This document shows positions 10,222-10,402 of a stretch of DNA of 33,030 bases, piece after piece. Origin of the DNA: Alphaproteobacteria bacterium. Its GTDB lineage: Bacteria > Pseudomonadota > Alphaproteobacteria > Micavibrionales > Micavibrionaceae. Numbering within the stretch: the stretch's first letter is position 1; each line of letters opens with the position of its first letter. Location of the stretch: positions 1-33,030 of the forward strand of contig JANWLB010000023.1 in NCBI GenBank assembly GCA_025451095.1. Direction: 5' to 3'. The position numbers were made by a program, and so were the translations under genes. Below the pieces are notes generated by a model. It made no database searches and was not told the DNA's origin. It was given only the letters and a program-made list of their open reading frames with translations.

Positions 10222-10313
10222 GCAGATGGTGGACCCAATCGGGATCGAACCCGCCGCTCCGCGGCTTCTTTTTCAAAAGTCGGTTCGATTCACCCGATTG
10301 TCGACAGATCTGC
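10222..10313. repeat. Long imperfect palindrome between mscL and tRNA-Ala
   Basis: The outer arms are GCAGAT (10222-10227) and ATCTGC (10308-10313); further pairs are AATCGGG (10237-10243) with CCCGATT (10293-10299) and TCGAACC (10245-10251) with GGTTCGA (10282-10288). A small inner hairpin (CCGC/GCGG) lies near 10251-10264. Each strand could fold into one long interrupted hairpin. On the minus strand it is followed by TTATTTAAG, so it may serve as a weak terminator downstream of the tRNA gene. One arm contains the copied tRNA 3' end. It may instead be the remnant of a small mobile element. Confidence 0.6.
10226..10251 (-). repeat. Copy of the tRNA-Ala 3' end
   Basis: The 26 bases at 10226-10251 are identical to 10326-10351, exactly 100 bp apart and in the same orientation. 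They correspond to tRNA positions 52-76 (most of the T arm, the 3' acceptor strand and CCA) plus one flanking base. No matching 5' acceptor, D arm or anticodon arm can be found next to it, so it is a fragment, not a second tRNA gene. The arrangement recalls the rtT repeats downstream of E. coli tyrT, which carry tRNA-Tyr 3'-end copies, or an attachment-site duplication. Confidence 0.85.
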
Positions 10314-10326
10314 GATGAGGAAAAAA

Positions 10327-10402
10327 TGGTGGACCCAATCGGGATCGAACCGACGACCTCTTGCATGCCATGCAAGCGCTCTCCCAGCTGAGCTATGGGC
10401 CC
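10327..10402 (-). tRNA. tRNA-Ala (anticodon GGC)
   Basis: A complete 76-nt cloverleaf with encoded CCA. The acceptor strands GGGCCCA and TGGGTCC pair with one G-U. The D arm is GCTC/GAGC with loop AGCTGGGA. The anticodon arm is CTTGC/GCAAG with loop ATGGCAT, giving anticodon GGC. The variable loop is AGGTC, and the T arm GTCGG/CCGAT has loop TTCGATC. The acceptor position 3-70 is a G-U pair, the alanine identity element (G3 with U70), in agreement with the anticodon. A run of T follows the CCA on the minus strand. Confidence 0.96.

Follow-up and report, generated by a model that had tools for sequence, protein, structure and literature searches.

What is a spare copy of a tRNA tail doing inside a palindrome directly behind the tRNA gene itself? 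The question arises at a tRNA-Ala(GGC) gene of an alphaproteobacterium of the Micavibrionaceae, in a stretch of 33,030 nucleotides that we call the window. An earlier note, made from the letters of the window, had reported that the tail of this gene is repeated exactly over 26 bp at a spacing of 100 bp and that the copy lies in a 92-bp imperfect palindrome. Both statements were borne out: positions 10226-10251 are identical to 10326-10351, and the 92-mer 10222-10313 folded as a single long imperfect hairpin. Read on the tRNA strand from 10325 to 10226, the unit consists of a spacer, an antisense T-arm, an A-rich loop, a GC hairpin, and the tail copy:

9774-10193, plus strand: mscL, the convergent neighbour (Pfam PF01741, E 6.4e-39)
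10222-10313, minus strand: whole 92-bp imperfect palindrome with outer helix GCAGAT/ATCTGC (fold)
10226-10251, minus strand: tail copy GGTTCGATCCCGATTGGGTCCACCA plus T (exact direct repeat)
10253-10265, minus strand: inner GC hairpin GCCGC-GGA-GCGGC (fold; not significant alone)
10266-10278, minus strand: loop, A-rich on the tRNA strand and T-rich on the plus strand (sequence)
10279-10300, minus strand: antisense T-arm CAATCGGGTGAATCGAACCGAC, with an extra TGA at 10290-10292 (comparison of copies)
10301-10325, minus strand: spacer of the unit, with one strand of the outer helix inside it at 10308-10313 (sequence)
10326-10351, minus strand: native tRNA tail, from T-loop to CCA, plus one T (exact direct repeat)
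10327-10402, minus strand: tRNA-Ala(GGC) gene, CCA encoded (ARAGORN; Rfam RF00005, 61.2 bits)

The repeat stands out from its surroundings: the longest local repeat of the window is 26 bp, versus at most 14 bp in 50 Markov-resampled windows. The unit region folded with a z-score of −2.60, and only 1 of 200 shuffles folded at least as well. The other arm of the palindrome had been described as a T-arm in reverse, and an inverted copy is indeed present, interrupted by an insertion that reads TCA in the plus-strand direction and TGA in that of the tRNA. It must be read differently in one respect: its match to the T-arm of the tRNA itself is longer than its match to the tail copy and takes in the 5' T-stem bases GTC. 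Because these bases are unique to the real tRNA, the arm is the complement of the tRNA and not of the copy.

Pfam scans of the neighbours of the unit identified mscL, a DsbD-like gene, an ORF without a Pfam match and an O-antigen-ligase-like gene; no integrase gene linked to the duplicated tail was found among them. The genome is a 1.97-Mb draft (85% complete, 6.8% contamination), and it contains no second copy within that 85%. Its top match outside the unit locus (G000:C61) was rejected, having no tRNA nearby and looking coding-like by eye. The earlier note had named absence of the unit elsewhere among the grounds on which its reading would fall; there are no further copies in the unit's own genome but there are in relatives, and on that count the reading is not refuted.

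Copies in the family follow the same tRNA and keep the antisense arm

We searched 104 genomes of the family with the pattern CGGGTGAATYGAACCGA. Nine exact matches were found in eight genomes (G000, G018, G092, G003 with two, G095, G097, G112 and G113), each placed in line behind tRNA-Ala(GGC) or, in G097 and G113, whose contigs start inside the tRNA gene, behind its 3' part. The second G003 copy lies 293 bp past the first. As a separate observation, some 190 bp between these two units (L020, 1304-1497) hold a long CCCTCACCC...GGGTGAGGG inverted repeat that is REP- or MITE-like. ARAGORN found no tRNA at the 22 loci with two-mismatch matches; 10 of the 40 listed matches, the second G003 copy among them, had no locus of their own. 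Of 30 loci fetched for the tRNA, relatives and window genome together, three had the unit, and in G090 and G091 a decayed antisense arm was the sole remnant.

We also built a covariance model of the unit and searched 142 genomes of the order with it. This picked up a diverged copy at tRNA-Ala(GGC) of G117 and, in G093, two units at 3' fragments of tRNA-Leu. Two other, weak matches were set aside, one being the tRNA itself (G092) and the other a coding stretch by eye (G006). In the class as a whole, units of the tRNA-Ala kind are rare: a broad pattern occurred in 2 of 385 alphaproteobacterial genomes, the window's own included.

What is kept among the nine copies is the antisense arm. It is invariant apart from one C/T difference and holds the same TGA across genera, while the spacer, the loop, the hairpin sequence and the flanks diverge. 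In G117 the T-stem of the tRNA is altered, and both the antisense arm and the tail copy follow the change. Within the tRNA-Ala set the arms are constant, and RNAalifold accordingly detected no double compensatory change.

The same design recurs at other tRNA genes and in haloarchaea

Copies at other tRNA 3' ends, which the earlier note had suggested looking for, turned up in relatives. In G093, where 30 of 33 tRNA loci were examined, tRNA-Pro(TGG) is followed by the same design and tRNA-Leu(TAA) by the start of a unit at a contig end. The two tRNA-Leu 3' halves of G093:C155 (L093, 3183-3370 and 18409-18596), both of which carry a tail palindrome, bracket some 15 kb with TelA, ion-channel and glutathionylspermidine-synthase-like genes and no integrase in nine scanned proteins. 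A third partial copy on this contig (position 643) was discarded, its hairpin being decayed and its tail absent. In the same genome, tRNA-Arg(CCG) (L151) has two more acceptor-end copies downstream (GGGCGCGCCAT and GGGCGCGCTAT) with no clear antisense arm.

We then scanned GTDB contigs with GGGTGANTYGAACCN{14,44}GGTTCRANYCC. Nine matches were obtained. Four were contigs of the Micavibrio family, and four of the other five follow a tRNA or tRNA tail: tRNA-Ala(TGC) in a Pseudomonas-labelled contig (label unchecked), an alphaproteobacterial contig end, tRNA-Thr(TGT) of a member of the Haloarculaceae, and tRNA-Val(CAC) of Haloarcula pellucida. The fifth (L165) has no preceding tRNA or tail, looks coding by eye, and was rejected. 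The contig filed under Pseudomonas (L162) may be mis-binned: the tRNA-Ala(TGC) in its rRNA operon is the one with the unit, and this unit is like the alphaproteobacterial ones.

The archaeal units were followed up in H. pellucida, where 43 tRNA matches led to 30 distinct tRNA genes examined from 30 fetched loci plus L169. A tail copy lay within 300 bp downstream of 12 of these 30 genes versus upstream of none, and arrays of two or three units occur. Across the haloarchaeal phylum, a stricter palindrome pattern was found in 27 of 294 genomes and the reversed pattern in none; at 23 of the 27 loci fetched, a tRNA is found no more than 400 bp upstream, and at four it is not.

Most units track the tRNA that they follow. 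The match of the antisense arm to its own T-arm exceeded all 200 shuffles in 16 of 22 bacterial and archaeal units, and six failed this test, four of them by far. In 11 of the 22, no other tRNA in the set is matched as well by the arm as its own. Hairpins recur as well: of 325 haloarchaeal pairs taken across different tRNAs, 36 were more similar than the best of 600 shuffles.

Occupied and empty sites, and a block boundary in the T-loop

The earlier note had considered a small element carrying a tRNA tail, a view that agrees with matched empty and occupied sites in Haloarcula and in E. coli. At tRNA-Val(CAC) in the genus of H. pellucida, units are present at 13 of 29 loci and absent from 16. 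At four of the 13 (L210, L212, L217 and L237), the flank after the last tail copy fits the post-tRNA flank of a unit-free relative above all control windows; at the other nine no such fit could be shown. In E. coli, a tyrT-rtT query matched 5,375 of 5,426 genomes, with at least 80% coverage in 4,640, and strains carry 0 to 5 copies. MG1655 has a tyrV tail followed by three 178-bp repeats. In isolate 624 there are none, and the second tRNA-Tyr runs directly into the flank found after the last repeat of MG1655. ET350 carries a single unit; none is present in A25 or AVS0501, where the neighbour differs. Unit presence and absence are thus clean, but insertion looks the same as deletion between tails.

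The boundary of the duplicated block lies in the T-loop. Copies in six Haloarcula loci (L210, L211, L212, L217, L218 and L237) read GGTGAG and then a tRNA-like 3' part, and the boundary of the E. coli tail copy falls between GCTGAGT and AATCC. A 9.2-kb island of G091 (L170, G091:C3 258-9520) is inserted in the T-loop of tRNA-Ala(GGC), with its DUF6538/Phage_integrase gene adjoining the tRNA, and likewise has a far core that starts in the T-loop. A decayed antisense arm lies past the far end of this island; thus the palindrome predates the island and belongs to the chromosome.

Taken together, these results suggest, tentatively, that the unit is a short, gene-free tRNA-tail palindrome that is gained and lost at tRNA tails, probably by site-specific recombination acting on the folded palindrome. 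We put the probability of this reading at roughly 0.42. The point where units enter and leave would be the T-loop, at which tyrosine integrases that target tRNAs are active too. The tRNA tail would be the target, and the folded palindrome, in which the T-arm core is rebuilt as a stem, the partner site. Because the unit brings its own tail, the tRNA would be left whole and the old tail would end up at the far end. The recombinase would be a tyrosine recombinase supplied in trans by resident elements. The pairing would parallel that of attI and attC in integrons, with the tRNA in the place of attI. Among the comparisons made here, this reading draws on the nine in-line copies, the near-invariant arm, the co-change in G117, the recurrence in two domains, the matched sites, the T-loop boundary and the cross-tRNA hairpins.

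Several observations stand against it. The empty sites could equally stem from slippage or from homologous recombination between two tails. Nine of the 13 Haloarcula flanks are unmatched, and the window's genome has one copy only. A foreign tail would break another tRNA, so movement between tRNA species would need an extra step. Our searches found no recombinase or autonomous parent, no integron integrase above its cut-off in 16 unit-bearing genomes, and no carrier in phages, plasmids or viral contigs. Some carrier searches gave nothing at all, and what the others gave was rejected: the antisense-arm pattern occurs in four viral contigs, none adjoining a unit or tRNA; the phage set gave one partial match, in a Salmonella contig; and a match of 28 bp was obtained to a Novosphingobium plasmid (E 0.07).

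Alternative readings of the palindrome

The unit may instead work at the level of RNA, as proposed for rtT: in a read-through transcript, the palindrome would shape termination or trimming and free a small RNA. The antisense arm would pair with the tail copy and so be kept off the tRNA, and copy number would shift by ordinary recombination between tails. Release of rtT RNA from the tyrT transcript is reported (PMC4986893). The folds are in line with such a role. We folded 29 unit segments, a set that excludes L201, L203, L214, L218, L222 and L209 (= L169), and found z-scores below −2 against shuffles in 20 of them, with a mean of −3.2. The inner hairpin alone, scored in 11 alphaproteobacterial units, was equalled by 7 to 278 of 300 shuffles and was mostly not significant, so the argument rests on the whole fold. 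G113 has lost GGTTCGAT from its tail copy and kept its antisense arm intact, again as an RNA role would allow. The idea that the hairpin ends transcription survives, weakly, on the strand of mscL only, where the inner hairpin together with the TTCTTTTTCA after it (10253-10275) looks like an intrinsic terminator for that gene. In G018, however, a stem CCCTCC/GGAGGG followed by TTTTTT sits between the tRNA and the unit (seen in the sequence; a scan gives the stem on the other strand only), most sister species are without units, and E. coli strains range from no copies to five. An RNA-level role is the main rival, possible but rather unlikely in our judgement.

A transposon-like insertion with a long target duplication would account for the tails in another way. 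The antisense arm would guide the element to the universal T-loop, and the tail of the host tRNA would be duplicated on insertion. This would solve the problem of the foreign tail, and it fits the hairpins that recur at different tRNAs with tails that follow the host, as well as the generic antisense arm that two haloarchaeal units (tRNA-Thr and tRNA-Val) have in common. Yet no transposase or autonomous relative was found, and the 11 of 22 antisense arms that fit their own tRNA best go beyond what a generic guide needs. We consider this reading improbable.

Template switching and slippage in replication typically leave inverted and direct copies of one short stretch, and the copy number here is variable, but a functionless by-product of such events at the tRNA is very unlikely given an antisense arm that hardly varies and keeps its TGA from genus to genus despite diverged flanks, and a five-part order identical in bacteria and archaea.

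Comparison with known systems

Recombination on the folded palindrome, our preferred reading, has to be set beside rtT, integrase islands and integrons. The analysis connects a long-known oddity, the rtT repeats behind E. coli tyrT, with the tRNA-gene palindromes of Micavibrionales and haloarchaea, which have the same five-part design. Known until now mainly as E. coli rtT, this design is now seen to follow many tRNA genes of other bacteria and of salt-loving archaea. Titles and abstracts searched in the open literature mention no palindromic tail units after tRNA genes beyond rtT. A testable question follows, namely whether these units are trailers acting on tRNA transcripts or, among site-specific mobile units at tRNA genes, the smallest. 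The units also make spare tRNA tails, which affect tRNA gene annotation and the mapping of islands.

The likeness to rtT that the earlier note had drawn holds for the design and not for the sequence family. Every MG1655 repeat combines an antisense T-arm, GGGGAAGGATGAGAAGCTTCGA where GGGGAAGGATTCGAACCTTCGA is expected, with GC hairpins and a closing tail copy AATCCTTCCCCCACCACCA, in the same orientation as the window unit, which likewise ends in a copy of the upstream tRNA's tail. The E. coli unit is longer, at 178 bp versus about 100, and its hairpins are longer. The Rfam RtT model (RF00391) gave three matches in E. coli rtT, none in the window at the gathering score, and none at E up to 1 for L052, L021, L064, L088, L162, L169, L184, L192 or L087. 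The design is thus common to these units and the sequence family is not: the window unit is rtT-like in design and not a proven RtT member.

The islands that tyrosine integrases place at tRNAs also duplicate the block that starts in the T-loop and ends with the tRNA, and the G091 island is a case of this. Published accounts deal with tRNA fragments as island ends (or as CRISPR spacers) or review archaeal tyrosine recombinases (PMC3119063, PMC9897764, PMC8371274). The suggestion of an attachment-site scar is right in so far as the duplicated block of the window unit has the extent of an integrase att core; it fails in that the unit is kept across genera and is not the debris of one island. Such islands measure kilobases and carry an integrase, whereas the unit measures about 100 bp, has no gene, and includes an inverted T-arm.

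A further parallel in form is the integron. An attC site is an imperfect palindrome that has an unpaired interruption and ends in a variable hairpin, a core stands at each unit end, and units form arrays. Our units resemble attC in all these features, yet they contain no gene cassette and their core is the tRNA T-arm. The integron R-box consensus is GTTRRRY/RYYYAAC; the boxes of the unit read GTTCGAT/ATCGAAC, with C at position 4, and by eye depart from it. The integron integrase TIGR02249 scored above its cut-off in none of 16 unit-bearing genomes, counting the window genome at 85% completeness. A broader proposal, which we hold doubtful, is that the units make up one class, spanning bacteria and archaea, of cassettes that lack genes but resemble those of integrons; the T-arm of the tRNA gene would serve as attI and the folded inverted-T-arm palindrome as attC, and rtT would be one case.
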